Shown here: piece after piece, positions 13,488 through 31,155 of the stretch | Numbering within the stretch: the first letter of the stretch is position 1 | How the letters are laid out: each line of letters starts with the position of its first letter | NCBI RefSeq assembly: GCF_900176145.1 | Contig: NZ_FWWY01000001.1 | Location: 1,163,819 to 1,227,818 of the forward strand | Direction: 5' to 3' | DNA: 64,000 nt | Source: Sulfobacillus thermosulfidooxidans DSM 9293 | Lineage (GTDB): Bacteria; Bacillota; Sulfobacillia; Sulfobacillales; Sulfobacillaceae | Translations under genes and position numbers: made by a program | The notes under the pieces: generated by a model | Seen by the model: only the letters and a program-made list of their open reading frames with translations | Databases searched by the model: none | Told to the model about the DNA's origin: nothing

Positions 13488-13916
13488 GTGTTCATCTACT
13501 TTTTGTGTACCGGCAATTCCTGTCGTTCCCAGATTGCGGAGGGATTTGCGCGGCTGATGGCCAAAGACGGGGTTCGGGTTGAAAGCGCTGGGATCGAGGC
13601 CCATGGTTTAAATCCTCGTGCCGTTCAGGTGATGAAAGAAGTCGGCATCGATATCTCGACGCACCACTCCAAATTGATTGATAACGAGTTATTGCACCAA
13701 GCGGATTTTGCGATTACTTTATGTGGGGATGCCAGGGATCGTTGTCCGATCACTCCCCCAGAGGTGACACGGCTTCACTGGGGTTTTGAGGATCCCGCCC
13801 GAGCTGAAGGCTCTGAAGAGGAAATTATGGCGGTGTTTCGCCGGGTGCGGGATGGAATTCGTGATCAGGTCAAAGCGTTTTTAGCGGAGCAAAACCTGTT
13901 GCGTGAGGATCTTTGA
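13488..13916 (+). CDS. arsC: Arsenate reductase, thioredoxin-coupled low-molecular-weight phosphatase type
   Basis: The product has 142 residues, starting at GTG 13488 with GGAG ten bases upstream. The phosphatase-like loop CTGNSCRS gives Cys7-x5-Arg13. Cys79 and Cys86 in [10 protein letters not shown] match the second and third redox cysteines of the thioredoxin-coupled ArsC family, and a downstream DPA motif (EDPARAEG) supplies the conserved Asp. The enzyme reduces arsenate to arsenite in the cytoplasm. No arsenite exporter is adjacent. A MerR gene and metal ATPases lie several kb away. Confidence 0.92.
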
Positions 13917-13919
13917 TAC

Positions 13920-15476
13920 CTAGTTGTGAGGATCTTGAGGAAGCATATCCAGTTTGGCGGCGAGATTCTGTTTATGAATTTTGCCAGCGCTCGTTAAGGG
14001 CATTTCTTTAATGTAAAAAATATGGTCAGGAATCCAAAACTTGGGGATTCGTCCGGCATTGACCTGATGGGCCAGGTAATCGAGGATCATATCGGGATCA
14101 ATGGCTTGGCGGGTTTGAATAACGGCCACGGGCCGCTCTCCCCACTTGGGATCGGGTGCCGTTAAGATGGCCACCTGGTCAATGCCGTCAATTTCGGAGA
14201 GGATGGTTTCAAGGACATTGACGGCGATCCATTCTCCTCCGCTTTTGATGGCGTCTTTTAAGCGGTCCACAATGGCTAACGTACCATCTGGGTATAAAAT
14301 CCCGAGATCGCCACTGGCGAAATATCCGTCCCGAAAGGCTTGTTTTGAGGCTTGGGGATCGCCTACATATTCTGTGGGAAGCCATGGGCTTTTTATCCAA
14401 ATTTCTCCAATGTTGAGGCCATTGGCGTCCAGGATTTGACCTTGGTCATCGTGAAGGGAGATTTCGACCATGGGCAGCGGCATGACACGGCCACTTAGGA
14501 TTTTTTCACGTTCGGGGGAGGATAGTACCGAGTGGGGAGGAATGGATGAGATGGCCGAAGCTAGTTGATCGGTCCCACCATAAATGACGGAAATTTCCAC
14601 ATGGAAATGGGATGCCTTTTTGGCTAAGCCATAGGTTAATGCGCTGCCCCCGGTCAAGACTTTTAAGGGATCATCCAAGGGACCGGATAAGACCTCTAAG
14701 AGTCTATAAAGCTGAGTGGGAACCATATTGGCCCAAGTCACATGGTGTTGAGCGATTAACTCGACTTGGTCTCTTGGGCTCAGTTTCGGTGATAACACCA
14801 ACGATGCGCCAATATACGGTGCAATAAAGGGAATTCCCCAACCGTGAATGTGAAAAAAAGGGATGAGGGGTAATAAGGTTTCATCGGGTCCTAACCGGGC
14901 GGGGGTATCTTGTAACGCGAGATGGTGAACGATTTGCCATGAACTTAACAAGAGATCCCGGTGACGGTACAGGACACCATGGGGCCTTCCGGTTGTGCCC
15001 GTCGTAAATCCTATAGAAAACGGATCGGTCTCGTGGATCGTTACACGCGGAAAATGCGGCTTCCCGTGCCGTATTAAGCCATCATATTGGGTAGGCATGG
15101 CAATTTGCTGGGGAATTAAGCTTTTTAAGGTGTCGGCTAATGATAAAAATTCAGCTCCGACAAAGAGCCAGGTATCCCGAGCTTGCCGGATGGTGTATTC
15201 GAGGTCATTTAAGGATAACCGGAAATTTAAGGGGTGCATAATGGCGCCCACAAAGGCGAGCGCATAATGAAGTTCAAGAAAATTTTGCGAGTTGGCATCT
15301 AAAATGCCCACCACTGTTCCCTGGTCGATACCCATTTCCTGCAAACTGTTTGCTAGCTTTAATACGCGTTCTAAGAGATTGGCGTAGCTCGTGAATTGAT
15401 TCTCATACCAAATGCCTTGCTGAGGATATTTGTGACTGGCTTCTAAGAGGACTTGAGAAATGACTAATTGATCCAT
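13920..15476 (-). CDS. AMP-forming fatty acyl-CoA ligase
   Basis: The start ATG 15476 (MDQLVISQVLLEASHKYP) is chosen because AAAGGGAT precedes it and the N-terminal residues upstream do not look like protein. The product has 518 residues. ANL-superfamily motifs are present in order: P-loop (TTGTTGRPHGVLYRH), PFFHIHGWG, YGGTDQL, the hinge (SGDLGILYPDG) and the C-terminal KSGGEWI and SAGKIHK with the catalytic Lys. It activates a carboxylic acid, probably a medium or long-chain fatty acid, to its CoA thioester. It is convergent with arsC, with only three bases between the stop codons. Chain-length specificity cannot be read from the sequence. Confidence 0.9.
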   Translation of the reverse strand: MDQLVISQVLLEASHKYPQQGIWYENQFTSYANLLERVLKLANSLQEMGIDQGTVVGILDANSQNFLELHYALAFVGAIMHPLNFRLSLNDLEYTIRQARDTWLFVGAEFLSLADTLKSLIPQQIAMPTQYDGLIRHGKPHFPRVTIHETDPFSIGFTTGTTGRPHGVLYRHRDLLLSSWQIVHHLALQDTPARLGPDETLLPLIPFFHIHGWGIPFIAPYIGASLVLSPKLSPRDQVELIAQHHVTWANMVPTQLYRLLEVLSGPLDDPLKVLTGGSALTYGLAKKASHFHVEISVIYGGTDQLASAISSIPPHSVLSSPEREKILSGRVMPLPMVEISLHDDQGQILDANGLNIGEIWIKSPWLPTEYVGDPQASKQAFRDGYFASGDLGILYPDGTLAIVDRLKDAIKSGGEWIAVNVLETILSEIDGIDQVAILTAPDPKWGERPVAVIQTRQAIDPDMILDYLAHQVNAGRIPKFWIPDHIFYIKEMPLTSAGKIHKQNLAAKLDMLPQDPHN

Positions 15477-16028
15477 AGTTGGCTCATCCCTTTCGCTCCC
15501 TGCCACTGGGATATGCATCTGTTGAGCTTGATGCCTTGTGGTTCTTGAATTTTTTAATGTGAATGGTGCTACATTATTACGGTGAAGCACAGTGACAGAT
15601 ATACACTCAGGGATAGCCATTCATGTCATGCGGAACTGCCACGATAAAGGAATTATTATCCATGATATCATAAGCTGTGATTCTGAAACTATCGATCTAT
15701 TCAATACGCGGAAAAAGATCGGTAGCCCAATATGTCATCGCGATAAGGTTTTTGATGAATTTGAAGAAGGAGGTCATGACTCATCATCAGATGACCATAC
15801 GAAGAGTGCATGAGGACCATAATTCGTAGTGCCGCAATAAGCCATGTCAGTGGCAAGCGAGATTTGCCGGGCTCGCCCTATTGCGAATCCGGCGAAAGGC
15901 TGTCTCCATTTGAGAAGCTTTACCTTCCGGTTTGCTGGCGTCTATAGTCTCATGGATTGGTTATAGGAAAAAGCTATGGGCATTCTAGGCCGCACCTTAA
16001 TATCTTACGGGATATTATTTGACGTATT
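15477..16028. other. Intergenic region, no supported gene
   Basis: No frame here combines a ribosome site and protein-like sequence. AAGGAGG at about 15767-15773 is followed after only two bases by ATG of a 17-codon frame, which is too close and too short to call. The region holds the promoter of the acyl-CoA ligase (minus strand). Confidence 0.35.
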
Positions 16029-16667
16029 TTACGCGAGCCGACTTGTCCGCGGCATGCGTAATAGACCCATTTGGTGACCGAGACGAGCGCAATCATGCCG
16101 GTTCGAAGCATTTAATTTGTGTAAGAGATGTTCCACATGTCGCTTGACGGTATGGACAGAAATTTGTAATGCGTCCGCGATTTGAGCATTGGAATAATTT
16201 TGATCGAGCAGCCATAACACCTCGCGTTCCCGCGGTGTTAAGCCGGGCGGATTTGTTTCTGCTTGGGACAGATTCCCTTTCATAATGCCCTGCCAAAATG
16301 ATTGACTAATCAAGACGCATTGAGACGATACGACCGTACGGATTAAGTCCACTAACTGATCGCAGCATTGGGTTTTATCGAGTAGCATATCAATGCCTAA
16401 TTTCATGACCGGACCCGTTAAATGAAACGTCATGGGGGACAAAAACACGGCCGATTTCACTGCGGGATTGATACTTTTCCATGTGTTCAGGGTATGTTGG
16501 ATATGAAGAAGATTATCCGACTCTATCAGCACGGCGTGAACCGTTGAGTGATTCGTCGTTTCGTCCAGCATAACGACCTCGGTATCGGCTTCCCTTTCTA
16601 ATACCGCGCGAATGCCGGCTGCAAAAATAGGAGAATGGCTAACAATTCCGATTGTCATGACATTCAC
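16029..16667 (-). CDS. LuxR/NarL-type regulator with a degenerate receiver domain
   Basis: The product has 212 residues, starting at GTG 16667, eight bases after GGAGG. The C-terminal helix-turn-helix is typical (LTPREREVLWLL ... NAQIADALQISVHTVKRHVEHLL). The N-terminal 120 residues follow the receiver fold, but the acidic pair is replaced (VSHSPIF) and the phosphoacceptor position reads LIESDN. Only the Lys (LLDKTQ) is kept. It is therefore probably not phosphorylated in the usual way. No kinase is adjacent, so its trigger and targets are unknown. The IS256 element lies about 155 bases upstream of its start. Confidence 0.8.
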   Translation of the reverse strand: MNVMTIGIVSHSPIFAAGIRAVLEREADTEVVMLDETTNHSTVHAVLIESDNLLHIQHTLNTWKSINPAVKSAVFLSPMTFHLTGPVMKLGIDMLLDKTQCCDQLVDLIRTVVSSQCVLISQSFWQGIMKGNLSQAETNPPGLTPREREVLWLLDQNYSNAQIADALQISVHTVKRHVEHLLHKLNASNRHDCARLGHQMGLLRMPRTSRLA

Positions 16668-16821
16668 GGACGAGGCCTCCTTTTTTCATAGATTTCGAAA
16701 AATTATGTGGATATTTTTCCCTTTTTAGCATACAACCTCGAACTTCGTGATCCGTCTCAGCTTTGTCTCAGTTATTAATGGTCCATTTTATACCAAAACC
16801 TGGAGGAGGTCAAGTCCTAAT

Positions 16822-18182
16822 TTGTGTGTAAAAGCGTTCCCTTGGTTGGCGAGTCGTTAGGCGACAACCGCTGGTCCCGCATGAGGCGGCCCATCCGCCG
16901 CCGCTTGAGATCGTTTCGCTTGCCAGTAAGGCTCGAGATTCAGATACCGCTTACCAGTGGTCCACACCTCATGCTGCTCGAGCAACAGCGCGCCCACCAG
17001 GCGGATCGCCGACTCCCGGTTCGGAAAAATCCGAATCACCCGTTCTCGGCGCCGGATCTCGGCATTGAGCCGCTCGACGCCATTCGTGGTGCGTAATCGC
17101 TGGCGCAGCGACTCGGGGAGTTGCAACACCGCCAGCGCGTCCTCGAGCCCGTTCTCCAGAATCGCCACGGCGCGGGGAGCCCGCTCGGCAAAGTCCTCGA
17201 GCAGTTTGGTCCACAAGGTGTCGACGGTGGCCCGGTCGGGGGCTTCGAAGAGTGCGCGGAGACGACCGTGCAGCTCCTCCTGCACCGCTTTGGGCGCGGC
17301 ATCGAGGATATTCCGCGTGAGGTGCGTTTGGCAGCGCTGCCAACTCGCCCCTTGGAATTGCTGTTCGATAGCCTGCCGCAGCCCGCGGTGGTCATCCGAC
17401 ACCACCAGGTCGACGCCCGTTAAGCCCCGATCCTTGAGGTCGGTAAACACGGCCGTCCACGTCTGCTTCGATTCGCTATCCCCGATCCAAAACCCGAGAA
17501 TTTCTCGGTACCCCGCCGCATTAATGCCGGTCACCACACACCCGCTCCGGGGCCGCACGGCCCCGTTCTCACGGATTTTCAAGACCAAGGCATCCACAAT
17601 CAGGAACGGGTACTGCGTCTCCGCGAGGGATCGGGTTCGCCATTGCTGGACGGCCGCCTCTAAGCCTTTCGCCAGGTCCGACACCGTAGACTTCGAAAAT
17701 TCGGTGCCACAGAGCTCTTCGGTCACGCGCCGGATTTTGCGGGTTGACACCCCATTCACCACCATTTCCATCAGAGTGAGGACGAGAGCTTTTTCATGCC
17801 GCTGGTACCGCTCAAAGAGTGTGGGACTGAACTCCCCGTCCCGCGTCCGCGGGACCTCCAGCGTCAACGTGCCGACGCGCGTCGTGAGTTGCCGGCTCCG
17901 TGAGCCGTTGCGATATCCGCGCCGGTCTTCGGTCCGCTCGTACCGGTCGGCTTGAAGATGTTCCGTCACTTCGGCTTCTAACACCTGATTTAAGACCTGT
18001 TGCAACAAAAGCGCGAAGGCCTGATCCTTTTGTCCGACTAGGGACTTGGATTGTTTGATCATCCAGTGTAATCTGATAATGAGCCATTGCGTGATCCTCC
18101 TAAGATTTGTGAGTTGTGTCGCTTTCAAATCTACCAAGGAAACGCAATGGCTTTGAAATTTTTAAGCCCCTTTTACACACAA
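16822..18182 (-). mobile_element. IS256-family insertion sequence
   Basis: The ends carry the inverted repeat TTGTGTGTAAAAG (16822-16834; complement at 18170-18182). Related inner segments follow on both sides (GCGTTCCCTTGGTTG at the left, GCGTTTCCTTGGTAG at the right). The element is 1361 bp and more GC-rich than its surroundings. No matching 8-9 bp flanking duplication is visible, so one end may have been rearranged or the insertion is old. Confidence 0.8.
16857..18087 (-). pseudogene. IS256-family transposase with an N-terminal frameshift
   Basis: ATG 18087 with AGGAGG upstream begins MAHYQITLDDQTIQ, the expected N-terminus. The remainder (SLVGQKDQAFALLLQQVLNQ onward) continues in another frame. 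Removing one base near 18041-18047 restores about 409 residues. The body has the Mutator/IS256 features: YERTEDRRGYRNGSR, VPRTRDGEF, catalytic Asp in LIVDALVLK, VVSDDHRGL, and the Cys/His segment WQRCQTHLTRNIL. A TTG or internal ATG could still start the longer frame, so activity is not excluded. Confidence 0.75.
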
Positions 18183-18264
18183 TATCGGACTCTACTCCTG
18201 GAGGATGGCAGAGAATAAATAAATTTATAGACTTTTTTGCTGTCGGATCATGGCAACAAAAATA

Positions 18265-18293
18265 AACTGGCCCAATAATCGGTTAGGCCAGTT
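18265..18293 (-). terminator. Intrinsic terminator of the ArsR-family gene
   Basis: On the minus strand ACTGGCC pairs with GGCCAGT over a 15-base loop and is followed by TTTATTTTTG. It lies about 30 bases past the ArsR-family stop codon. Confidence 0.75.
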
Positions 18294-18322
18294 ATTCCTG
18301 GGCTATGCGCTATGTTGGTGAT

Positions 18323-18691
18323 TTATGACGGAGTGTTTTGTTCAGACCTATTTTTGGGCCGAACGACACTACAAGAAGCAACGCCGGCAATATGGTCTTG
18401 CAAGACGGCACTGCCCAAATCTAATAAGGTGATAACCCGTTCGTCGCTAATTCGGTAATAGACGAATCGCCCTTGTGACTGGGCTTGAACCAAGCCGCAA
18501 CTCTTTAGACAGGCCAGGTGGTTTGATAAATGGCCCTGACCGATATCCAGACGTTTGACGAGCTCACCGACATTTAACGACCCCTCTTCGCGCAGACTCT
18601 CTAAAATCCGGAGGCGAATGGGATGGCTCAGGGCTTGCCAAAATGAAGCCAACAAATCTTCGTGTTGGGTCTGACTTGTCGTGAAAAACAT
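18323..18691 (-). CDS. ArsR/SmtB-family metal sensor of the CmtR type
   Basis: The product has 122 residues, starting at ATG 18691 with GAGGAG upstream. The winged-helix core is clear (ALSHPIRLRILESL, LNVGELVKRLDIGQGHLSNHLACLKSCGLV, GRFVYYRI). Cys61 and Cys65 form a CxxxC in the recognition helix region and Cys107 lies in the C-terminal tail. This matches the spacing of the Cd/Pb sensor CmtR (Cys57, Cys61, Cys102). The family represses its target when metal-free and releases DNA on metal binding. It is monocistronic with its own terminator; the gene it controls is not obvious, but the metal ATPase region begins 4 kb further on. Confidence 0.85.
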   Translation of the reverse strand: MFFTTSQTQHEDLLASFWQALSHPIRLRILESLREEGSLNVGELVKRLDIGQGHLSNHLACLKSCGLVQAQSQGRFVYYRISDERVITLLDLGSAVLQDHIAGVASCSVVRPKNRSEQNTPS

Positions 18692-18941
18692 GCGGCTCTC
18701 CTCTTTTTGTCACCGAATAAATTCATTCTATTAAAATTGTACAGAGTTCAAACGTTTCGCTCAACTAATCAATAGACCTATTTTATGGCGATTACCACGC
18801 CTTACACCTATGCATTCACACAAAAAACTCACCTATTAGGTGCTATGGAAAGCATGAAGACGGTATTTGGTGGTGAATAGCCTCGCCAAATACCGTTAAC
18901 AGCATAGAAATAATGAGTGGTTGTGTTGATACTTTAGGGGA

Positions 18942-19409
18942 CTAGCTGTTTTTGAGCAAGTCATTCAGCCGACTTCCTTTGTCAAGCTTAAGCATCATAA
19001 TACCGACAATAAGAAGATAAAGCCAAGCTGCTAGAGAAAATCCACGGCCGAAAGAATATTGGAGAAATTGAATGTGCCCCACCAACGGAGCTTTATTAAT
19101 GCCGAATGGTAAAGCGGTGATGCCGGAGATAAAGAACATCGTCATATTATAGGCGGTGAAAATAATGGGAGGTCCGTAATATGAGCGCAGTCCGAGTAGA
19201 TAAATGACCGCAATCAGTCCATACGATGCGGTTTCGATGTCAATCCAGTACGAGACAATCGGTGTCGATCCGGGGCTGGCAAAGAGGTGGGCTGCTACGT
19301 CTAATAATGCAAAGAACACCAGTGACAAACGCAGTGTATGGATTATCCGAAGATGTTTCGAGTCTATGTTTAGACGTTCGTCAGCAACCGTTTCCAATCG
19401 ACTACTCAT
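18942..19409 (-). CDS. Four-helix membrane protein of unknown function
   Basis: The product has 155 residues from ATG 19409, or 159 from ATG 19421; the ribosome site AAAGG is too close to the latter. Four hydrophobic segments span about residues 25-150 (LSLVFFALLDVAAHLFA, YGLIAVIYLLGL, TAYNMTMFFISGITA, LAAWLYLLIVGIMML). The C-terminus is short and charged. I do not recognise the family. It stands alone between the ArsR-type gene and an unannotated stretch. Confidence 0.65.
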   Translation of the reverse strand: MSSRLETVADERLNIDSKHLRIIHTLRLSLVFFALLDVAAHLFASPGSTPIVSYWIDIETASYGLIAVIYLLGLRSYYGPPIIFTAYNMTMFFISGITALPFGINKAPLVGHIQFLQYSFGRGFSLAAWLYLLIVGIMMLKLDKGSRLNDLLKNS

Positions 19410-19421
19410 AAGGCAGCACAT

Positions 19422-20101
19422 CCTTTCTTATTTGTGAATCATTTCACTTATAATGCTATCATCTTGGTGCCGGGACAACAGAGGGCATATGGTCCATAAC
19501 TGGGGACCCAAATGACGAAAATGGATATAGGCCTTTTGGTCCTGGTGTGAGGGATAGGTCTACTCCTTGTCGGTAGACTATCAACGTTCCCTACGTTTGT
19601 CTTGGCCGAACACGGGGACATAGAGGACTCAACCACGACCATCAAAGGAAGGTATCGTTATTCCAACACCCCTTCTTATTCGGGTAGATATGGTCCTTTT
19701 ATTGGCGTTAACGTCAGGGGGAAAGCGTTGGTGTAAGATGGTTATATTAACGGGGCGCCAGATTCCGGGAGTGTTTTCGTTCTATTGACAACTCATCTGG
19801 TAAGAGGACTGTCTTTATTGTGCCTTACAAGAAAACAGATTGCGGATGGCATTAAGGGTGCCCTATTGTCCAATTGCGGGAATTGATGGTGGGAGCGCTT
19901 CAGGCGATTACACCATGGTTAGCAAAAAAACCAACGATTTGTAACTTTCCCTTATACAAACGGAAGTTGGTATGATGGATCTGATGGATACGCTGAGCAG
20001 GCGTCTAATTCTTCTGTCGCGTAAGTCAATCAGTACTATGCTGGGCCATAATCCTTTTGAGGAAGGGCAGTGGACGAGGGTAAATGGGAGGCAGATAACT
20101 C
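19422..20101. other. Intergenic region of 680 bases, no supported gene
   Basis: A 65-codon frame on the minus strand (19448-19645) lacks a ribosome site and protein-like sequence and was not accepted. TTGACA at about 19784 and TATGAT at about 19971 are promoter-like hexamers but are not paired convincingly. GGGAGG at about 20090 serves the next gene. Confidence 0.35.
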
Positions 20102-20593
20102 GTGCTACGAAATTTTTTCACAACCAAAGTGGGAATTGTGACGGGCATTGCATTGGTTCTTGCGGGTGGCAGTGCCGTTTTTGCAGCCTCAAATTTTACA
20201 AATCCCTACCCGCCTCACGCTGGTGAGCCAGCGCCTAGAACGTTTCCGCATATCACTGTGCCGATTCCAAAGTCAGGACAACCTGTCCCTGCGGGACTTA
20301 CAATGGCCGTTACGAAGACTCAGGCGATTCACGATGCCTTGACTCAGGTCATGCAGCAAGATCCCTCGGGCTCGCCGACAGTCATCAGTGCCGTGCTTGT
20401 GTCGAAAACTACGGCCGAAGCTGAAATTGGCTCGGTGTCGCCATTGTTCCCCGACTATTTCTGGAAAGTGGGTTTAACAGGGGCGATAAAGTTATCAGAA
20501 CCCGCTGGAACCTATTCTCATGTCTTTGTTTTTGTGGACGCTCAGACTGGGCATCCATGGATTATTTGGGTGCCATTGCCACCGGCCCATTAG
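20102..20593 (+). CDS. Small secreted protein of unknown function
   Basis: The product has 163 residues, starting at GTG 20102 with GGAGG ten bases upstream. Residues 1-29 are a signal peptide (KVGIVTGIALVLAGGSAVFA). The mature part starts with a Pro-rich stretch and ends with VFVDAQTGHPWIIWVPLPP, a compact beta-like tail. No family was recognised. It lies 188 bases ahead of the selenoprotein candidate on the same strand, but with a separate leader, so a shared operon is not certain. Confidence 0.6.
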   Translation: MLRNFFTTKVGIVTGIALVLAGGSAVFAASNFTNPYPPHAGEPAPRTFPHITVPIPKSGQPVPAGLTMAVTKTQAIHDALTQVMQQDPSGSPTVISAVLVSKTTAEAEIGSVSPLFPDYFWKVGLTGAIKLSEPAGTYSHVFVFVDAQTGHPWIIWVPLPPAH

Positions 20594-20781
20594 CTTGCTC
20601 CCAATGCCGAATCTTTCTGATAAAAACCTGGTCAACTCGGTTATTTTCGTCCTTTAATCCTTGATAAAATAAGAAAATTTAGACTGAAGAAACGATAACC
20701 TCGATGATTGAAACGGGATTGTCGTTAGTTCATAATAATAAAAACTATAAAAATGCAAGTGATGAAAAGAGGTCATTCCAT

Positions 20782-21579
20782 ATGACTAGTTCACCAATCC
20801 CGTTATCGTGGGAGGCATCATACGAGCAGTGGAAACAAAGTCGTTACCCCTCTTTGTTAGAAAAGGACTGGAAGACGGCATTTAGTGATTACCCATGGAT
20901 TTCTTTTTTCGATAGCCCTTTTGTTGCTCTTTCTAAACCACTAAACCAGTCTCGGATCGCTTTAATTAGTTCCGCCGGCGTGTCGTTAACCACACAACCT
21001 CCTTATGATGCCGAGGATCCCTTTGGGGATCATAGTTTTCGCGGCATCGATACAAAAACTCCCTTGCCAAGCTGGCAGGTCAATCATGGACACTATGATA
21101 CGACTTCGGCGCAAGTCGATTATAATACCGTATTTCCGCTGGATATTCTGACCCAATTAGCACAAAACGGATATATCGGCTCGCTTGCAGCAGAAAATTA
21201 TACGTTCATGGGATACCAGCCTGATCCCCGTCCGTTTTATGAGAAGTCGGCTGGGAAGATTTTAGAGGGGTTACGGGCACAAGGAGTGGATGCGGTGCTG
21301 TTAATCCCTGGATGACCCGTGTGTCATCAGTCCGTGGGACTGTATGCGCGTTATTTGGAAAGTGAAGGCATTGCCACCGTTGTTATAGGCGCTCTTAAAC
21401 CGATGTTGGAAACGGTAAAACCTCCGCGGGTCTTGTGGATTCGGGCCGCGCTCGGAAAACTAGTGGGAAATCCCCACGATACCAACGAGCAAATGAATCG
21501 GGTCAAAAAAGCCCTCAAGCTCTTAGAAACAGCAACCTATGGCGGTACTTTGATATCATATTCCGACAAAGAGAATTGA
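20782..21579 (+). CDS. Probable selenoprotein, PrdB/GrdB (selenoprotein B) reductase family, in-frame UGA
   Basis: ATG 20782 follows AGAGGT. The frame stops at TGA 21313-21315 but continues in the same frame for 88 more codons, and both halves match one family, the glycine/betaine/sarcosine/D-proline reductase selenoprotein B group. Read through, the product is 265 residues with codon 178 as selenocysteine in LLIPG-U-PVCHQSVG. That is a UxxC redox motif, as in D-proline reductase PrdB. A hairpin just after the UGA fits a bacterial SECIS element. Family members reduce their substrate through the Sec/Cys pair, but this copy has no proline or glycine reductase partners, so the substrate is unknown; a role in metal or oxidant defence is suggested by the MerR gene 60 bases downstream. 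The alternative is a nonsense mutation of a Cys codon. Confidence 0.75.
21325..21346 (+). promoter_or_regulatory. Candidate bacterial SECIS hairpin
   Basis: CAGTCC (21328-21333) pairs perfectly with GGACTG (21337-21342) around the loop GTG. The stem extends by CAT (21325-21327) pairing with ATG (21344-21346) with U21343 bulged. The loop begins 18 bases after the UGA and its first base is G. In the family of bacterial SECIS elements a short loop with an early G at this sort of distance directs SelB to insert selenocysteine. Confidence 0.6.
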
Positions 21580-21638
21580 TGGGGATATTCGGGCGTGATT
21601 CATGCGGTCATAGGGATTTTAGCAAAGGAGGAGAGAGA

Positions 21639-22076
21639 ATGAGCCAACGTCTCGACACCATGCGCATTGGCGAACTGGCCAAATTAGCCAAAATTACTCC
21701 CAAAACTCTTCGATATTACGAAGATTTTGGGTTATTGCCGGCCAGTCAACGCAGTGAATCGGGATACCGCTTATATTCGTGGAACGATTTGGATCGACTG
21801 CGGTTTATCCAAAAAGCCAAAGCAGTCGGATTTTCGTTGAGCGAGATTCGTTCGATTATGGCTTTACGTAATCACGGCGAGGTACCGTGCGATCATGTGA
21901 AGGCATTGATTAATCAGAAGTTGGAAGAAGTTCATTCTCAAATCCAAAATTTGAAAGAGTTAGCTGACGAACTACGCGTGATGCAACAAGAAGCCGAAGC
22001 ACTGCCGTCGTGTGAAGCCTGCGTCTGCGAGATTATTGAGCATCATGACAACAAGAGTCAACAGGATGTTTTTTGA
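21639..22076 (+). CDS. MerR-family metal-responsive activator
   Basis: The product has 145 residues, starting at ATG 21639 behind AAAGGAGGAG. The winged helix is near residues 9-75 (MRIGELAKLAKITPKTLRYY, SESGYRLYSWNDLDRLRFI), followed by a long dimerisation helix. A Cys in EVPCDHVKALI and a C-terminal cluster (SCEACVCEIIEHHD) match the metal-binding cysteines of MerR/ZntR/PbrR-type sensors rather than the two-Cys CueR loop. Such proteins untwist promoters with 19-20 bp spacers, and a promoter of that kind precedes the HMA/P1B-ATPase operon about 3 kb away. That regulatory link is inference. Confidence 0.9.
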   Translation: MSQRLDTMRIGELAKLAKITPKTLRYYEDFGLLPASQRSESGYRLYSWNDLDRLRFIQKAKAVGFSLSEIRSIMALRNHGEVPCDHVKALINQKLEEVHSQIQNLKELADELRVMQQEAEALPSCEACVCEIIEHHDNKSQQDVF

Positions 22077-22085
22077 TAATGTGCC

Positions 22086-22135
22086 AATCCTTCCTGCTTA
22101 GGGGTTTTCCATTAAGCCCTTAAGCAGGAAGGATT
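22086..22135. terminator. Strong bidirectional terminator
   Basis: AATCCTTCCTGCTTA (22086-22100) pairs perfectly with TAAGCAGGAAGGATT (22121-22135), and the loop can add GGG/CCC pairs. It separates the MerR gene from the convergent P1B-ATPase gene. Confidence 0.85.
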
Positions 22136-22205
22136 AATAGAATAGGGATCATATTGCTAAGGATCACACCTTAAGACTTTTGGTGATATATTCTTCATCA
22201 TGTCG

Positions 22206-24485
22206 TTAACCTTTTGCCTTAATAGGATAAGAGGTTACGGAGGAAATCAGGTGCTGAGGAGGGGACGCGAGTTTTCCGCCTAGAAAAGAGTTAGTCAACA
22301 CCGTGCTGACGCTCATGACCATTGCCAACATCGCCCATGAGGGGCCGATTAATCCGGTCATCGCCAAAGGAATGCCTATCCCATTAAAAGAAAATGCCAA
22401 TGCGATATTTTGTACGGTTTTGTGATACGAATTGCGGCCAATCATAATGGCTTGCGGCACTGCGCTGAGACGATCTCCCATGATAATGACATCTGCTGAT
22501 TCCATCGCGATATCGGTACCGGCTCCGATCGCCACTCCTACATCAGCTTGCGTGAGTGCTGGCGCATCATTAATTCCGTCTCCTACCATCATGACGCGGT
22601 GGCCGAATTGTTGCAGTTCTCGAACCGCATGGGCCTTTTCGCTAGGTAATATTTCGGCACGAAAATCATTGATGCCCACTGCTTGGGCTACGGCTCGGGC
22701 TGTGTATTGATTATCGCCTGTCAACATGATCGGTTTGATGCCAAGTTTCTTAAGATGATTCACCGCTTCTAGAGCATCAGGTTTGATCGTGTCGGCGATA
22801 GCGATAAAACCTAGCAAGGTATCATTTTCGGCGACGCCTACCACGGTATTTCCCTGTGCTTGCAACGATTTAATCTGGCTTTCGTGACCATCAAGTTTAA
22901 TCCCCTCGTCTTCCAAAAATCGAGGGGATCCGACTTTGAGGTGTCGGCCCTCCCATGTTGCCTGTAACCCTTTACCCGGAAACGATTGGAAATCATCCAC
23001 AGTGGGAATATCCAGACCTTCTTGCTCAGCGTATTGAACAACGGCACGAGATAACGGATGTTCAGAGGGGTTTTCAGCGATAGCGGCAATTTTTAGGAGA
23101 TACGGCTCAGACGTTCCTTCAAGAGGAATAACTTGGGTCACCGAGGGGCGCCCTTCGGTCAGTGTTCCCGTTTTGTCGAGGGCTACCCACTGAATATCTT
23201 TAAGGACTTGGAAAGCTTCGCCGCCGCGAATCAATATCCCGTGTTCTGCCGCCATGCCTCCTCCTCGGATCATGGCTAAAGGTGTTGCCATTCCTAAGGC
23301 ACAAGGATATCCCATCACGAAGACGGCTAGCATGGCAAAGATGCCTCGGGTTATATCCATATGTCCTGATACCATATAGTCTCCGAGCGTCCAGATAAGA
23401 ATTGCTAATGCGGCAGCCGCCAACACGCCGGGGACATAGACCGCAAGAACGCGGTCAACGAGTTGCAAAATTCCCGGTTTTTTGGCTCGTGCTTCTTCAA
23501 TTTGATGTGCGATCTGTTGAAGAAAGCTTTCCTCGCCGACACGGGTCACCAAGACCATCAAAGATCCGGTAAGATTGAGGGATCCTCCAATCACCTCAGT
23601 CCCGACGGTTTTGTCTACGGGCAATGATTCCCCTGTGACAAGACTTTCATTGACGGTAGAAGAACCATCAATAACGCGCCCATCCAAAGGAATTGCCTCC
23701 CCCGGTCGAATGCGGATAATCTCTCCAACCGCTATGTCGTCGATCGGTACGGTTTGTTCGAGACCGTTACGGATAACCGTTGCCATTGCGGGTTGTAACT
23801 CAAGAAGTTTCATGACCGAACGAGACGCCTTAGTTCTTACCAACAGGGAGGCATATCCTGAAAGGATGTGGTATGTCGTGATAAACGTCGCGACGGCAAA
23901 GAAGTCCGGAGCGGGAAATTCTAGGGCTGGGATATGGGCAGCGTGTCCAATGAGTCCCAATATCCCCCCCAAAAATCCACTGAATGCTCCAAATTCCAAA
24001 AGTACATGCTGGTTAAGAATTCCCCGTTTCAGCGAATGCCAAGCCATTTTGAGAATATAATAACCTGGGCCTAATATGGTTATTAAAGCGAAAAGAGGCA
24101 TGACTATGGTCATGAATGGGCGAATGATGTTTAGGGACACGAGGTGTAACCATAAAACACTCATTAAGATCAGAGAGAGCGCGGTCATGGTTCCAGCAAA
24201 CCATAAACGTCGGCGTTCCCAATCAATTTCTTTTTGCTGTTCCTCATACGCTTTGACACGCCGGGGATCGCGGATAGTATAACCTAAATCCAATAAAGTT
24301 TGCCGAATCTGATCATCTGTCAGTATTTTGGGATTGAACTCAATCAGGGCTTCTTCATGGGCGAGTGATACACTGGCGTTGATGATGCCAGGCATGCGAG
24401 CAAGGCCTTTGGTAATACTGGTTGCACAAAATGAGCAGGCCATCCCTCCGACTTTGTATTGTACTTGCTGCGTGTCTTCTGTCAT
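22206..24485 (-). CDS. P1B-type heavy-metal ATPase with a YPC metal-site motif
   Basis: The product has 759 residues. An N-terminal HMA domain has MACSFC (Cys17, Cys20). Eight membrane helices, the actuator motif TGES, the phosphorylation site DKTGTLTEG (Asp437) and the hinge GDGINDAP follow. The sixth-helix motif reads YPC (393-395) instead of CPC. In TM7 and TM8 the CopA residues YN and MxxSS are changed (SFNGIGIP, MVMSVSTVLTNS). It exports a soft metal from the cytoplasm using ATP, but copper specificity of the usual P1B-1 kind is doubtful. Its start overlaps the stop of the HMA chaperone gene (ATGA), so they are coupled. Confidence 0.9.
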   Translation of the reverse strand: MTEDTQQVQYKVGGMACSFCATSITKGLARMPGIINASVSLAHEEALIEFNPKILTDDQIRQTLLDLGYTIRDPRRVKAYEEQQKEIDWERRRLWFAGTMTALSLILMSVLWLHLVSLNIIRPFMTIVMPLFALITILGPGYYILKMAWHSLKRGILNQHVLLEFGAFSGFLGGILGLIGHAAHIPALEFPAPDFFAVATFITTYHILSGYASLLVRTKASRSVMKLLELQPAMATVIRNGLEQTVPIDDIAVGEIIRIRPGEAIPLDGRVIDGSSTVNESLVTGESLPVDKTVGTEVIGGSLNLTGSLMVLVTRVGEESFLQQIAHQIEEARAKKPGILQLVDRVLAVYVPGVLAAAALAILIWTLGDYMVSGHMDITRGIFAMLAVFVMGYPCALGMATPLAMIRGGGMAAEHGILIRGGEAFQVLKDIQWVALDKTGTLTEGRPSVTQVIPLEGTSEPYLLKIAAIAENPSEHPLSRAVVQYAEQEGLDIPTVDDFQSFPGKGLQATWEGRHLKVGSPRFLEDEGIKLDGHESQIKSLQAQGNTVVGVAENDTLLGFIAIADTIKPDALEAVNHLKKLGIKPIMLTGDNQYTARAVAQAVGINDFRAEILPSEKAHAVRELQQFGHRVMMVGDGINDAPALTQADVGVAIGAGTDIAMESADVIIMGDRLSAVPQAIMIGRNSYHKTVQNIALAFSFNGIGIPLAMTGLIGPSWAMLAMVMSVSTVLTNSFLGGKLASPPQHLISSVTSYPIKAKG

Positions 24486-24715
24486 GATGACACCTCCACT
24501 TTTACCTGGTAACCTAAAGCTTCTAAACGGTCTTGAATCACCTCTTCGGCGGTCTCATTCAAGGAAAATGTCACTTCAATTTTTTGTGTTTGGTGATCGG
24601 CTATGACGGAATGAACACCCGGGATGCGCCTTAAAGCCTTTCCTACTCGGGCCTCGCAGCTTGCGCAATGAAGTTTTTCGTCTCCCACGACGGTAAAGGT
24701 TTGTACTTTGACCAT
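24482..24715 (-). CDS. Small HMA-domain metallochaperone
   Basis: The product has 77 residues. ATG 24715 has AAAGGAG nine to ten bases upstream; a GTG nine bases earlier touches the ribosome site. The fold is betaalphabetabetaalphabeta with the metal motif LHCASCEARVGKALRRIPGV (CxxC). It delivers Cu(I) or a similar metal to the adjacent ATPase, with which it overlaps by four bases. It is first in the operon behind a MerR-type promoter. Calling it CopZ would assume copper as the metal. Confidence 0.87.
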   Translation of the reverse strand: MVKVQTFTVVGDEKLHCASCEARVGKALRRIPGVHSVIADHQTQKIEVTFSLNETAEEVIQDRLEALGYQVKVEVSS

Positions 24716-24772
24716 GGATATCACTCCTTTAAATTTTTGCGGTGATGTGTCGGACTTCTCTACCGCAGGAAC

Positions 24773-24804
24773 ATCGTAAACCTTCCCGTTAACAGGAATG
24801 TCAA
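24773..24804 (-). promoter_or_regulatory. MerR-type promoter/operator of the HMA-ATPase operon
   Basis: On the minus strand TTGACA (24804-24799) and TACGAT (24778-24773) are separated by 20 bases, longer than the usual 17. The spacer contains the dyad TTCCTGTTAACGGGAA. An over-long spacer with a central dyad is the signature of promoters activated by MerR-family proteins. Confidence 0.75.
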
Positions 24805-24815
24805 GGGACTTTTTG

Positions 24816-25147
24816 TTTTCTTTGGTATGTCGGACTCTTTTGGTCTAGCCGTTGGTAGGAGGTATACCCTGTTCTTGGACAATAACTGAAAGAGCGGACG
24901 ACCGTAGGATTGTTTTACCTCAAAAATACGGGAGGCTAAGTGATTGTAAGGCAGGAGATTAGATAGGGTTACTATAGCCACATCGAACGTTGATACAAAG
25001 GATTATGAGTCCGTCAGGCATATTGGCCAGTGGAGTGATATAACGCGGTATGGAAAGGCAACGCAGATGACGTTGCCCTCCAAGAATCCGATCAATAGAA
25101 ACTTTACGTCTATCCCACACCAACAGATATCTTAATGGCCTGGTCGA
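24816..25147. other. Intergenic region upstream of the MerR-type promoter
   Basis: Part of this stretch (around 24816-24840) resembles 26448-26475, so the duplication that includes the promoter extends upstream of it. No gene was recognised in the remainder. Confidence 0.4.
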
Positions 25148-26153
25148 CTAGCCACATCCTTTCGAGCACAGTGACCAGGCGATTTGATGATAAATCATGG
25201 CATAAGCCTGGGCCTCGTGAGAGGGCAAATGCCTCGATAAAATCCGCAGACGCGCATTTTTCCGCATCTCATCGGCCTCTTGGGGATGATCGAGGGTCAA
25301 ACGGAATGCCGCAATCAATTCTTCCGGGGTGTCGAACAACAACCCCGTTTTCCCATCCTCGATGAGATACCGGTTCCCATGAATATTGCTGGCGACGATC
25401 AAAGCACCACAACTCATGGCCTCCATGAGCGCGTTAGAGACGCCTTCGATCCGGCTCGTATTCAAAACAATGGTGGCCCGTTGGTACCATGTCCCCATCT
25501 GCTCCTTCGGCACTTCGCCCATCACCTGCACCCACGGTTTATCCTGGGCGGCTTGCACTACCCGTTCCCATTCTTCCCCATCACGCACCGGTCCTAATAT
25601 GGCGAGCTGAAAATCGATCCCCAGGGTCTTACGGGCGGATTGTACGAGGTCGATCGCCCAGGCACTGCGTTTCACCGGGCGAATACCGCCAGCCATCACG
25701 ACTAAGGGGGGCCAATCCCGCGTTTGAGACGAATCCGCGGGGCAGAACATCGTTTCATCCACCGACGGCGGGATCACCTGCACGCGGTGCTCCCACGCGG
25801 GAGCATCCGCCAACAACCGTTTACGGGCATTGGGCGTAAACACCACCTGATGGTGCAAGGATGACAGGGTGTGGCGAATCGGCCCGGGATCTTTCGCCCA
25901 ATCTCCCCATAAGTCGGTTCCGGTCCACGTGACCACGATTTTTTCAGGGTCAATGCCCTGGTGGAGTAATCGTTGTCCCACTTGCACCGCATTCCAGGCA
26001 TGATACACGTCATAGTCCCCTGAGATGGGGATGAAAACGTTCGACGTGTGCGTTAAGACCTAAGTGGTTGAGACCACGTTGCAGGCGTTCAGCCGACACA
26101 AAATTCCCCCCCGTAACGGGGGTATCAGGCGGCACAATTAAACCGATTTTCAT
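25148..26153 (-). pseudogene. GT4-family (GT-B) glycosyltransferase, frameshifted
   Basis: ATG 26153 follows AAAGGA. The first part, MKIGLIVPPDTPVTGGNF, is a typical GT-B N-terminus. The frame breaks at AAAA 26034-26037 (plus strand); removing one base joins NAHVERF to IPISGDYDVYHAWNAVQVG and gives about 334 residues. The C-terminal half has the GT4 donor site features (VVMAGGIRPVKRS, IEGVSNALMEAMSCG, with the E-x7-E type motif). It would transfer a sugar from a nucleotide donor in the cytoplasm. It lies between two copies of a metal-operon promoter and has no functional link to its neighbours, so it was probably inserted there. Confidence 0.8.
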
Positions 26154-26283
26154 CAGGCTTTCGTCCTTTCTTATGTTCATCCTAACCAAGCGACAAGGAA
26201 ATTTAACAAGATGCATTTCGAACAGCAAGTGGCGACTTTTTCACTTTTTCTGTTTGGGAAGAGGTTTTCGATAGGATCATTTG

Positions 26284-26375
26284 GAATGCGCTTTAAAGCC
26301 TTTCCTACTCTGAGCACCGCTTGTGCGATGGAGTTTTTTACTGCCCACGATACAAGATGTTTGCACTTTAATCAT
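26284..26375 (-). pseudogene. Remnant of a second HMA metallochaperone gene
   Basis: The minus strand starts ATGATTAAAGTGCAAAC (MIKVQT), matching MVKVQT of the intact chaperone at 24715, behind the same AGGAGTG ribosome site. DNA similarity continues through the CxxC region and the segment giving KALRRIPG, but the CASC codons are damaged and the frame is lost. It has its own copy of the MerR-type promoter. Confidence 0.75.
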
Positions 26376-26406
26376 GGATAACACTCCTTTCGTCTATTGC
26401 AGGAAG

Positions 26407-26438
26407 ATCGTAAACTCTCCCGTTAGCTGGAATGTCAA
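26407..26438 (-). promoter_or_regulatory. Second copy of the MerR-type promoter
   Basis: TTGACA (26438-26433) and TACGAT (26412-26407) again have a 20-base spacer, here with the dyad TTCCAGCTAACGGGAG. The architecture is the same as at 24773-24804, though the sequence has diverged. It now drives only a chaperone remnant and, past it, possibly the glycosyltransferase pseudogene. Confidence 0.7.
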
Positions 26439-26680
26439 GAGGTTTTTTCGATTTCACTGTCGGGGATGTCGGACTCCTGTCGGTCAGCCATAATTAATGA
26501 GATAACCTTCGTGTCACAGAAAAAAGAGTCCGTCGCCATATTTGGATGGGTGATTCAATGCTCGGATATTTTGATCTCAGATATCAAAGATTTTCAGGAA
26601 ATAAGAGATGAACGATGTCATGTGGAAAAGAAGCGGTAGAATGCCTTAAGCGCCCAAGTGAGTGGATGTGCTGCACGTAA
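26439..26680. other. Duplicated upstream region, no gene
   Basis: The part next to the second promoter resembles the region upstream of the first (TGTCGGACTC is shared). Nothing else was recognised up to the end of the DUF4396 gene. Confidence 0.35.
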
Positions 26681-27520
26681 TCAGATGAAAACAGCACCCA
26701 GAGATGCTGCTAATATTCCTACGCTCCACATCGTGATATACCAGATTTTTCGGTGTTGCGTTTGATGTCCGTTCATGTTGTGTGACATCGAGGCGTCATG
26801 ATTATGCGCTAGATGTTGATGTTGTTGAGAATGGTTGCTAACGTGCTCTTCATAGGATGTTGTCTGAGGTTCTGTACTCATTAAACCGTGTTTTAAATGA
26901 GCTGCGACCATCCACCAATTTAAAGGATAAGCGAGAATGGCGCCCGCTATGAGGGCCAGGGACATCATAAACCAAAACTCACCCTGATGGGGTGATGCCG
27001 CTGCCGGATGAAGTCGGATCCAAGGAACCATGACCGCAATCATTCCGGCCATCACACCATTCATCGATAACCATTCAGGTAGAAACATTTTTCGAAGGGC
27101 CACAAGGTAGCTGCCGCCCACCATATCCTTCATAAAAAGCGATTGAAAAATCAGCCAGCCGACAAGAAATCCGGCGACATATTCAATGAAGAGATTAAGT
27201 ATCATCGATATGTGTTGAGAATGAAAAAGGCCAATGATGACGGCCGCTCCGATAATACCAACGCTGTCTCCGGCGACGCAATGCAAAGTGGATCCCACCG
27301 CTTGTTTCCACAAAGGTGCAATATATTGCCGGTGCGTACCCGGTAAAGGTTCTCGCACGGTCAATATATAGAGTACGAGCCCTAAAGGTCCCATAAATAT
27401 GGTGACGAGGAGAAAAGCCATGTGCATAGTCGTATCAATCGGGGCCTGGGGCCAGTCAAAAATTATAAACGAGACGGATAGCAAGGAAAGAATCCCCCAA
27501 AGTATAACGACACTTCCCAA
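26681..27520 (-). CDS. DUF4396-type membrane protein with a His-rich loop
   Basis: TTG 27520 is chosen as the start because AAGGAGGG lies eight bases upstream and the first membrane helix begins directly after it; an ATG at 27544 has no ribosome site. The product has about 279 residues and around six to seven helices. A cytoplasmic or external loop of about 30 residues rich in His and Met (HSQQHQHLAHNHDASMSHN) precedes the last helix and is suited to binding copper or another metal. DUF4396 proteins recur beside copper genes. It is the last gene of the csoR-copA operon, 77 bases after the preceding stop with overlap of upstream sequence. Confidence 0.75.
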   Translation of the reverse strand: MGSVVILWGILSLLSVSFIIFDWPQAPIDTTMHMAFLLVTIFMGPLGLVLYILTVREPLPGTHRQYIAPLWKQAVGSTLHCVAGDSVGIIGAAVIIGLFHSQHISMILNLFIEYVAGFLVGWLIFQSLFMKDMVGGSYLVALRKMFLPEWLSMNGVMAGMIAVMVPWIRLHPAAASPHQGEFWFMMSLALIAGAILAYPLNWWMVAAHLKHGLMSTEPQTTSYEEHVSNHSQQHQHLAHNHDASMSHNMNGHQTQHRKIWYITMWSVGILAASLGAVFI

Positions 27521-27597
27521 TTCATATCCCTCCTTTTCGCTCATAAACTGTAAAAATCTTTTAGGAATCGTAAGAAACGTTTTCGGAGCACTCCGAA

Positions 27598-28047
27598 CTA
27601 AATTTCCTTTTGAAGCATGGTAAGAAGATAAGCACTCAATGCAATAAGCCAAGCAATAGCCATGGTGAAAGAATCACTATTATGTTGCCCATCCATAAAA
27701 AAGGTCAGCCCGCTATATCCCGCGACGACTACGGCCACCAATCCAATGCCTGACCATAGCTTGGTAGATGATTTGGTGCTGGATAAAGATTTTAATGCGG
27801 TAATGAGAGATAACACGACTAAAAACACACCGAGCATCATATGAATCATGAAAATGGGAGAAGCAAAACCTCGGGAAATCATTGTGTGAAATCCCATTGG
27901 GATTCCGAGGTATCTCGGATTCATGGAGGGCAGGGTGACATAAAGATTTGTGTACATACCTAAGACAAATTGAACAAGGAGTAGTCCGACCATGACCCCA
28001 GAAATAGCCTGGACAGGGTTACGCGCAGCTACAGAACGGTCAACCAT
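27598..28047 (-). CDS. Four-helix membrane protein in the copper operon
   Basis: The product has 149 residues, starting at ATG 28047 with AAAGGAGG upstream. Four hydrophobic segments are visible (about 13-32, 62-85, 96-115, 125-143), with conserved-looking His residues (GFHTMIS, MIHMMLG) that could bind heme or metal, as in small cytochrome-b-like or DUF2231-like proteins. I do not assign a family. It lies between the YHS gene and the DUF4396 gene on the same strand and is probably cotranscribed with csoR and copA. Confidence 0.7.
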   Translation of the reverse strand: MVDRSVAARNPVQAISGVMVGLLLVQFVLGMYTNLYVTLPSMNPRYLGIPMGFHTMISRGFASPIFMIHMMLGVFLVVLSLITALKSLSSTKSSTKLWSGIGLVAVVVAGYSGLTFFMDGQHNSDSFTMAIAWLIALSAYLLTMLQKEI

Positions 28048-28148
28048 AATTCGTCCTCCTTTGGTCTTTTATCATTTGTCGTCTTTAAGAATTCCGGGTA
28101 TGCGCTTAAGAAAGACATACCCGGAAAGATGTTGCAGTGGATCTAGGC

Positions 28149-28304
28149 CTACTTCTGGTTCACATACTGAGCCGGATTTTCTTGAAAGCTCTTGGCGCAT
28201 CCGGCACAGCAAAAGTAATAGCGGGTACCCTCATAGTCAACATGGGGCGTTGTATCAGTGACATCCACAGTCATTTGACAGACAACGTCTACGGCTTGGG
28301 CCAT
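28149..28304 (-). CDS. YHS-domain metal-binding protein, 51 residues
   Basis: ATG 28304 has AAGGAGG upstream. The protein is almost only a YHS domain: VVCQMTVDV, then YEGTRYYFCCAGCAKSFQEN. The Cys in the first segment and the CCxxC cluster are the known metal ligands of this family. It overlaps the 3' end of copA by 16 bases, so the two are translated from one transcript. It probably acts as a small copper carrier or buffer for the exporter. Confidence 0.88.
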   Translation of the reverse strand: MAQAVDVVCQMTVDVTDTTPHVDYEGTRYYFCCAGCAKSFQENPAQYVNQK

Positions 28305-30733
28305 GTGATTTCACCTCCTTCCGTTGGTAGGGGTGTGGCTGGGAGTTTCGCCGTCTTTAATAACAGGGAGTTGGAGACGACAGACACGGAACTCATCGCC
28401 ATGGCTGCGCCGGCAAGGACAGGCGAAATGATGCCAAAAGCAGCCAAGGGAATCATCATCACATTGTAGATGAGAGACCAGAACAGGTTTTGGTGAATTT
28501 TTCCGAGCGTCTTTCGTCCTAACGTTAACGCCCGAACCACCCCGAAGATTTCTGGGGATAATAAGGCGACCTCTGCAGTTTCCAACGCGGCGTCAGTACC
28601 TGAGCCCACAGCGAGACCGAGATCGGCGGTGGCTAATGCCGGGGCATCATTGATCCCGTCACCAACCATGAGTACCCGAAATCCTTCTTCTTTGAGTTTG
28701 CTCACAATCTTGGATTTATCAGCCGGGAGAAGGCCGCCATAGATCCGATCGACGTTTAACTTTTTGCCAATAGCCTCAGCTGCGCGCTCTTGGTCACCCG
28801 TCAGCATCGCGACTTGAATACCGCGTTCGTGCAATGCTTTGATTGTGGCCGGAGCATCATCGCGAATCGTATCCGCCACAATAATCGCGCCGGCTAATTG
28901 TTCTGACTGACCAACCCATATCACGCTGGCTCCTTGTTCTTGCCAGGTATTGACAGTGTTTTGGATATCCTCGGGAACGTTGACATGATATTGTTCCATC
29001 AGACGTAAGTTCCCGACGACGATTTCTTGATCATTGATATACCCAACCATTCCCAAGCCGGCTTCGGTATAAACATCTTCGGCCTGGAATTCAGGGACGC
29101 CTTGCAGTTTCGCCCCGCGCACTACGGCTTGGGCGAGAGGATGGGTCGATTCGCGCTCAATGGCCCACGCCAAGGCTAACACGTTCTCCTCGGTAAAATC
29201 ACCATAGGCTATGACGTGTTGCATGTCAGGCTTTCCGCGGGTTAAGGTTCCGGTTTTGTCAAAGGCGACCAAATTGATGCGGCTTGCGGTTTCTAAGGCT
29301 GCGCCATTGCGGAAAAGAATACCCCGCTTGGCTCCAATGCCTGATCCCACCATCACCGCAGTAGGCGTCGCTAATCCTAAAGCGCAGGGACACGCGACCA
29401 CCAAAACAGCCACCCCATCTAATGCAGCCATTCGCCAGTGACCGGTAATCACTCCCCAGACGATAAAGGTGATAATGGCGATACCAATGACCACGGGAAC
29501 GAACACATTGGCAATCGTATCAGCAAATCGCTGCACAGGAGCTTTAGTGGCTTGCGCCTCCTCGACAGTTTTGACGATTTGGGCCAATGTGGTATCATGC
29601 CCGACCCGTTCTGCTTCGATCTCGAGTGTCGTGGAACCATTCAGTGTTCCGGCTGTGACCATGTCACCAGGCTTTTTATCCTGGGGCAAAGGTTCTCCGG
29701 TTAGCATGGATTCATCGGCCGTCCCTTGCCCAGCAACCACTTTTCCATCGACCGGAAAGCGCTCGCCGGCCAAAACCTGCAAAATGTCTCCCGGGTGAAT
29801 TGCGTCAACCGCGACAGTTTCCCAGTCTCCTTGGGCCGTCTTCCGGCGGGTTTCTTGTGGACGCAGGGCTAACAATTCTTCAATGGCTTGACTGGTGCGT
29901 CCTTTAGCGACGGCTTCCAGATACTTTCCGACCAGGACAAGGGTGATGACGGTGGCCGAGGAGTCGAAATATAAGGGACCATGAACGGCTAAATCGTACA
30001 TGGACAATCCCCAAGCCGCGAGTGTACCCGTCGCGACCAAAACATCCATGTTGGCATTTTTGTGACGCAAATTCATCCACGCCCGGTGAATGAATCCCCA
30101 TCCGGGTCCCCATTCGACGACAGTGGCAAATAGCGCGAGCATGATGCCGTTGTCGAGCCACGAGGGTCCGACATGAAACAGCACATGCACCATATCTACC
30201 CATATCGGGATAGAGAACAATATTGACCAGGATAAACGGCGTCTTGCCACTTGCATTTCATGTGAGCGGGGATTAGGTTCATCTGTGCTTTGCTGTTTGG
30301 GGGCAAAGCCCGCGGCCTGTAGAGCATCTGTGACTTGCTGAGCATCGGCAACGCCGCGAATAAGGTCAAGGGAGAGCACGCCGGTTACGGCATTCACTTG
30401 AACATTTTCGACTCCGGTCACAGACTCTGCCGCTTCGATCGCGCGTTTGCGCAAGGGTTCTTCATCCATACCTGCTAATATCCACGACACATGATCTTTG
30501 CGCACGCTGTAACCTAATTCCGTGATGGTTTCAACAAGTCGTGGCATGGTAACTAGGCTGGGATCAAAGGTAATGTTGGCACGTTCCAAGGCTAAATTCA
30601 CATGGGCATCAACCCCGTCTAACTGGTGCAACGCTTTTTCAATACTGTTAACACAAGTCGCACATGTCATGCCGCCAATATCTAAATTGATGGATTGAGC
30701 AGATTGGTCTTGATCAATCGGATGAGTGGCCAT
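28289..30733 (-). CDS. copA: Copper-exporting P1B-1 ATPase
   Basis: The product has 814 residues; ATG 30733 overlaps the csoR stop (TGATG) with AAGG upstream. A first HMA domain carries MTCATC; a second HMA-like region (about residues 75-140) has lost its CxxC. Eight membrane helices, TGEP, CPCALGLATP, DKTGTLTRG, the HP motif (STHPLAQAV) and GDGINDAP are all present. TM7 has YN and TM8 has MAMSSVSVVSNS, the Cu(I) site of P1B-1. It pumps Cu(I) out of the cytoplasm. Regulation by the preceding CsoR is expected. Confidence 0.95.
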   Translation of the reverse strand: MATHPIDQDQSAQSINLDIGGMTCATCVNSIEKALHQLDGVDAHVNLALERANITFDPSLVTMPRLVETITELGYSVRKDHVSWILAGMDEEPLRKRAIEAAESVTGVENVQVNAVTGVLSLDLIRGVADAQQVTDALQAAGFAPKQQSTDEPNPRSHEMQVARRRLSWSILFSIPIWVDMVHVLFHVGPSWLDNGIMLALFATVVEWGPGWGFIHRAWMNLRHKNANMDVLVATGTLAAWGLSMYDLAVHGPLYFDSSATVITLVLVGKYLEAVAKGRTSQAIEELLALRPQETRRKTAQGDWETVAVDAIHPGDILQVLAGERFPVDGKVVAGQGTADESMLTGEPLPQDKKPGDMVTAGTLNGSTTLEIEAERVGHDTTLAQIVKTVEEAQATKAPVQRFADTIANVFVPVVIGIAIITFIVWGVITGHWRMAALDGVAVLVVACPCALGLATPTAVMVGSGIGAKRGILFRNGAALETASRINLVAFDKTGTLTRGKPDMQHVIAYGDFTEENVLALAWAIERESTHPLAQAVVRGAKLQGVPEFQAEDVYTEAGLGMVGYINDQEIVVGNLRLMEQYHVNVPEDIQNTVNTWQEQGASVIWVGQSEQLAGAIIVADTIRDDAPATIKALHERGIQVAMLTGDQERAAEAIGKKLNVDRIYGGLLPADKSKIVSKLKEEGFRVLMVGDGINDAPALATADLGLAVGSGTDAALETAEVALLSPEIFGVVRALTLGRKTLGKIHQNLFWSLIYNVMMIPLAAFGIISPVLAGAAMAMSSVSVVSNSLLLKTAKLPATPLPTEGGEITWPKP

Positions 30734-31122: not shown

Positions 31123-31140
31123 TAGCTTACCTCCCTCCCC

Positions 31141-31155
31141 ACCCCCGGTGGGGTA
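31141..31155 (-). promoter_or_regulatory. Candidate CsoR operator
   Basis: TACCCCACCGGGGGT on the minus strand is a G/C-rich inverted repeat bounded by TA, the usual form of CsoR sites. It lies 19 bases upstream of the csoR start. TTGACA at 31193-31188 is a possible -35 box, but a properly spaced -10 was not clear. Confidence 0.7.

Follow-up and report, generated by a model that had tools for sequence, protein, structure and literature searches.

The analysed window is a stretch of 64,000 nucleotides from the genome of Sulfobacillus thermosulfidooxidans DSM 9293. It contains a gene for a PrdB-like protein with an internal TGA codon, a downstream gene for a MerR-family regulator, and genes for a heavy-metal ATPase and a metal-binding protein on the opposite strand. 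Coordinates of the genes and regulatory features are listed in Table 1.

Table 1. Features of the PrdB-like selenoprotein locus, in positions of the window; G003 is a related genome.
Feature	Position	Strand	Evidence and remarks
PrdB-like selenoprotein gene	20782..21579	+	265 residues, Sec178, stop TGA 21577-21579; reading frame, Shine-Dalgarno sequence, profile matches
Shine-Dalgarno sequence AGAGGT	20768..20773	+	8 nt before ATG 20782; read from sequence; kept in G003
In-frame UGA, almost certainly read as selenocysteine (U of UPVC)	21313..21315	+	TGA at the same column in 25/30 copies; TGC in alphaproteobacterial homologues
Bacterial SECIS element	21328..21342	+	6-bp stem, GUG loop; covariation in 24 homologues; fits published model (PMC13188914)
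MerR-family metal regulator	21639..22076	+	PF13411 and PF09278 over cut-off; 59 nt downstream of the selenoprotein gene; pair kept in G003
Heavy-metal translocating P-type ATPase, convergent neighbour	22206..24485	-	TIGR01525, 563 bits; context
HMA-domain metal-binding protein	24482..24724	-	PF00403; context

The reading frame of the PrdB-like gene is interrupted by the internal TGA alone, as an earlier reading made from the sequence only had proposed, and its translation at this point is ...VLLIPG-U-PVC-HQSVGL.... The same reading had assigned both sides of the codon to the selenoprotein B family, and the profile searches agree. The PrdB profile TIGR04483 matches the part before the TGA at profile positions 20-146 (2.8e-25) and the part after it at positions 150-227 (7.8e-11); the two matches are in order and almost contiguous, and the joined parts score 9.3e-44. 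The product also exceeds the gathering cut-off of the superfamily profile PF07355 (GRDB; 46.8 bits against 22). All six frames of the 64 kb were scanned for TGAs inside a reading frame that have long open flanks and a Cys close by. Four such sites are free of an overlapping longer ORF; three of them resemble the normal end or beginning of a long ORF, leaving TGA 21313 as the one good candidate. The Rfam search of 20700-21700 gave no convincing match, and nothing was found in PHROGs. The gene restored here would be broken up by standard annotation, giving a shortened ORF and leaving an orphan.

The genome holding the window (G000; 3.86 Mb in 2 contigs, 99.9% complete) has a complete selenocysteine (Sec) machinery, including a tRNA-Sec with a UCA anticodon (64.5 bits), selA (556 bits), selB (358 bits) and selD (360 bits), the last of which carries an in-frame TGA of its own. 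Because all four are present, a wholesale lack of the machinery is excluded as an objection to Sec decoding. Among the related genomes, selA is found in 29 of 31 that have a TGA-containing copy of the gene, versus 75 of 120 others (Fisher P 4.5e-4, with relatedness ignored). One genome counts against the Sec reading: G019, a MAG of 96% completeness, has a TGA copy and no selA match. A Sec-containing formate dehydrogenase (PMC4378227) and the Sec peroxiredoxin PrxU (PMC7409299) have already been credited to Sulfobacillus.

Matches to the gene were found in 38 of the 151 related genomes searched. Thirty copies were read closely, and in 25 of them TGA occupies exactly the same column and is followed by xxC; the remaining five are two paralogues with Ser and three copies that are broken or diverged at this column. 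The Ser paralogues (G081, locus L040, and G117, locus L047) read SPLCHQT and retain the second Cys, a natural loss of the nucleophile. TGA likewise stands at this column in the operonic PrdB of Terrisporobacter, Enterococcus and Ligilactobacillus, and the alphaproteobacterial homologues from Roseomonas and Haematobacter have TGC there, forming a Sec/Cys pair. The proposed UxxC motif with Sec at the redox position is thus upheld by the alignment of homologues.

The distribution of the gene is patchy within the genus (two of eight genomes), and decayed or broken copies occur in the relatives G009, G011, G021 and G039; patchiness and decay are often seen in accessory genes. The named genome collection yielded one relative alone, a Bacillota MAG. 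A plasmid of Sulfobacillus acidophilus (CP003180.1, about 26800-27101; L066 8804-9102) carries a broken remnant of the first ~116 residues that contains a stop and a frame break; it occupies a gap without annotation ahead of a sulfate-assimilation cluster. Two Sec-containing copies stand in tandem at locus L056 (G017:C46, 10988-12789), with a MerA of partial length and a glycosyltransferase akin to 25148-26008 of the window close by.

The RNA following the UGA folds into the hairpin CAGUCC-GUG-GGACUG, with a stem formed by 21328-21333 and 21337-21342 and the loop at 21334-21336. Its G-starting loop and the 18-nt spacing had been predicted correctly, the spacing being that of the loop and not of the stem; the predicted bulged U is not conserved, and most relatives pair at these positions. 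Across 24 homologue sequences 93.8% of cells pair, both sides change in five of eight pairs, and one pair occurs as GC, AU, CG and UA. The covariation score is 0.265 versus 0.089 after shuffling (0/500; 24 sequences), and the covariation is lost when the partner is shifted by one to three columns. Folded on its own, the sequence shows only moderate stability (z from -1.2 to -2.6), so the case for the hairpin rests on covariation. Published constraints on bacterial SECIS elements call for a loop of 3-9 nt, G in the first two loop positions, an upper stem of 4-16 bp and a distance of 16-37 nt from the UGA (PMC13188914), and the GUG loop, 6 bp and 18 nt found here agree with them.

These data also bear on whether the TGA could be a true stop or a sequencing error, which would make the gene either a misread Cys gene or a pseudogene, with a 177-residue fragment as its sole product. 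Broken copies do occur in the four relatives, but the same TGA recurs in 25 copies from independent assemblies, the part downstream of it is conserved, the hairpin covaries and the genome has the Sec machinery. We therefore reject both a sequencing error and a pseudogene, and regard this explanation as highly improbable. Taken together, the machinery, the conserved TGA column, the Cys homologues and the covarying SECIS element indicate that TGA 21313-21315 is almost certainly read as Sec, giving a selenoprotein with a UPVC motif.

Assignment of this selenoprotein to a known enzyme is a separate question. The product could be the PrdB subunit of D-proline reductase, or GrdB of glycine reductase; TIGR04483 is its best family match, and it is about 33-34% identical to operonic PrdB. 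However, its TIGR04483 score of 149.6 bits is half of the equivalog cut-off of 300. A search for PrdA came up empty in the genome, although it reached 928-976 bits in three prdB plasmids and gave weak matches in relatives that also carry GrdA and GrdB-type genes. GrdA, which is present in 8 of the 151 relatives, was not found in the genome either; the earlier statement that proline and glycine reductase genes are lacking nearby therefore extends to these two partners across the whole genome. In a tree of 33 rows, operonic PrdB with its UGTCHR motif forms a supported clade apart from the group of the window's protein, which comprises G000, G003, G008, G017, G019, G020, G031, G041 and G122. Because of the low score, the missing partners, the separate clade and the UPVCHQS motif, the product is by sequence a member of the PrdB/GrdB superfamily and not PrdB. 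Of the original family assignment, membership in the superfamily stands; identity with PrdB or GrdB proper is rejected as scarcely credible, and the protein appears as a stand-alone relative.

The predicted fold is of the alpha/beta type (pLDDT 94.8; modelled with Cys), with a strand at 171-175 and a helix at 179-194 flanking position 178. No close solved structure was found by sequence search, and Foldseek with the predicted fold gave no match at E up to 0.001. The best VIA-align Z score, 8.8, is to unrelated alpha/beta proteins and is uninformative on function.

We propose, with high confidence, that the gene encodes a stand-alone PrdB-like selenoprotein with a Sec178/Cys181 redox pair, SelB- and hairpin-guided Sec insertion and selenol/thiol chemistry. 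As suggested by the machinery, conservation and covariation, SelB and Sec-tRNA(UCA) would decode UGA 21313 with guidance from the hairpin at 21328-21342. Sec178 and Cys181 would form the UPVC pair at the N-terminus of the helix, a position of the selenolate that follows from the predicted fold. By analogy, the selenolate of Sec178 may attack an electrophilic substrate, Cys181 may resolve the adduct as an Se-S bond, and a thioredoxin-type donor may recycle this bond; the role of the protein is likely that of a stand-alone selenol/thiol reductase. The substrate is probably neither D-proline nor glycine, since searches of the genome gave neither PrdA nor GrdA. D-proline is further disfavored because in the known D-proline reductase the pyruvoyl group is supplied by a partner subunit (Kabisch 1999, as cited in PMC13188914).

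The genomic neighborhood may hint at a more specific function. The MerR neighbor named by the sequence-only reading was confirmed by both of its domain profiles, and its gene probably shares one transcript with the selenoprotein gene. The arrangement of selenoprotein, MerR, ATPase and HMA protein genes is common to G003. In G008, G017, G019 and G039, MerA scoring over its family cut-off is encoded 0.5-2.8 kb from the homologue, and a heavy-metal ATPase lies less than 5 kb from it in G000, G003 and G041 (4.4 kb in G041). One or the other is thus found within 5 kb in seven of the nine genomes of the order that have a copy, versus 0.12 expected under random placement, in a test that was made after seeing the data, takes related genomes as independent and counts the broken copy of G039. 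With Sec insertion as described above, the protein could accordingly serve against mercury or other soft-metal stress beside MerA or heavy-metal efflux, under the adjacent MerR; we consider this rather unlikely. Besides the post hoc nature of the test, hitch-hiking is possible because metal genes cluster in islands, the alphaproteobacterial homologues adjoin other genes (SelO, cobalamin genes), the PrdB-like gene is missing from six other genomes of the genus, at least five of which carry MerA, and no convincing MerR operator was recognised upstream of 20782. MerA in the window's own genome is far off (443625 versus 1184600), compared with less than 3 kb in the four relatives. The stress or metal role put forward earlier is therefore suggested by the repeated proximity and goes no further than a suggestion. 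We speculate, with considerable doubt, that the stand-alone UPxC branch of the order could consist of metal-linked detoxification selenoproteins for mercury or other soft metals, acting with MerA or an efflux ATPase and not in amino-acid fermentation. If true, this would give a physiological role to a long-listed group of selenoproteins, and it is directly testable.

Region 13488-31230 of the window is rich in metal resistance genes, encoding a thioredoxin-type arsenate reductase, an ArsR/SmtB regulator, two heavy-metal ATPases, an HMA protein and a CsoR/RicR-type regulator, and includes an apparent transposase ORF at 16857-18137. At locus L057 (G019:C120, 347-6771), a run of genes encodes MerA, a HAD dehalogenase, the PrdB-like Sec protein, an AhpC/TSA-like protein, a DVU_1556-type methyltransferase and a TrsS-like radical SAM protein that scores below its cut-off.

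In the literature searched, mostly outside subscription journals, we found neither a stand-alone 'PrdB-like' protein nor a PrdB-family selenoprotein of Sulfobacillus described. The protein is homologous to the D-proline reductase subunit PrdB (TIGR04483) over about 210 residues, is of similar length and has Sec of UxxC at the same column; in contrast, operonic PrdB has its own motif and sits with prdA, prdC and prdD. GrdB, the selenoprotein B of glycine, sarcosine and betaine reductases (PF07355), belongs to the same superfamily and shares the UxxC Sec motif, but it is a chain of about 430 residues and is accompanied by GrdA. The proteins annotated as 'glycine/sarcosine/betaine reductase selenoprotein B family protein' on Roseomonas and Haematobacter plasmids resemble the window's protein in their CP(V/I)CHQ motif, 33-35% identity and lack of an adjacent prdA, and differ in the Cys that replaces Sec and in their neighbors. 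By their description, the marine-metagenome proteins named 'proline reductase PrdB' (PMC1088965, PMC2398784) are also alike, being abundant pfam07355 UxxC selenoproteins assigned by homology. Proteins filed in this way were among the commonest selenoproteins of the Sargasso Sea, with 42 sequences (PMC1088965), and numbered 235 with Sec and 110 with Cys in the Global Ocean Sampling data (PMC2398784). UxxC selenoproteins of the PrdB-like family have been known since 2005, and the gene described here adds a member. Some of the proteins labelled 'proline reductase PrdB' have no PrdA partner and therefore probably do another job.
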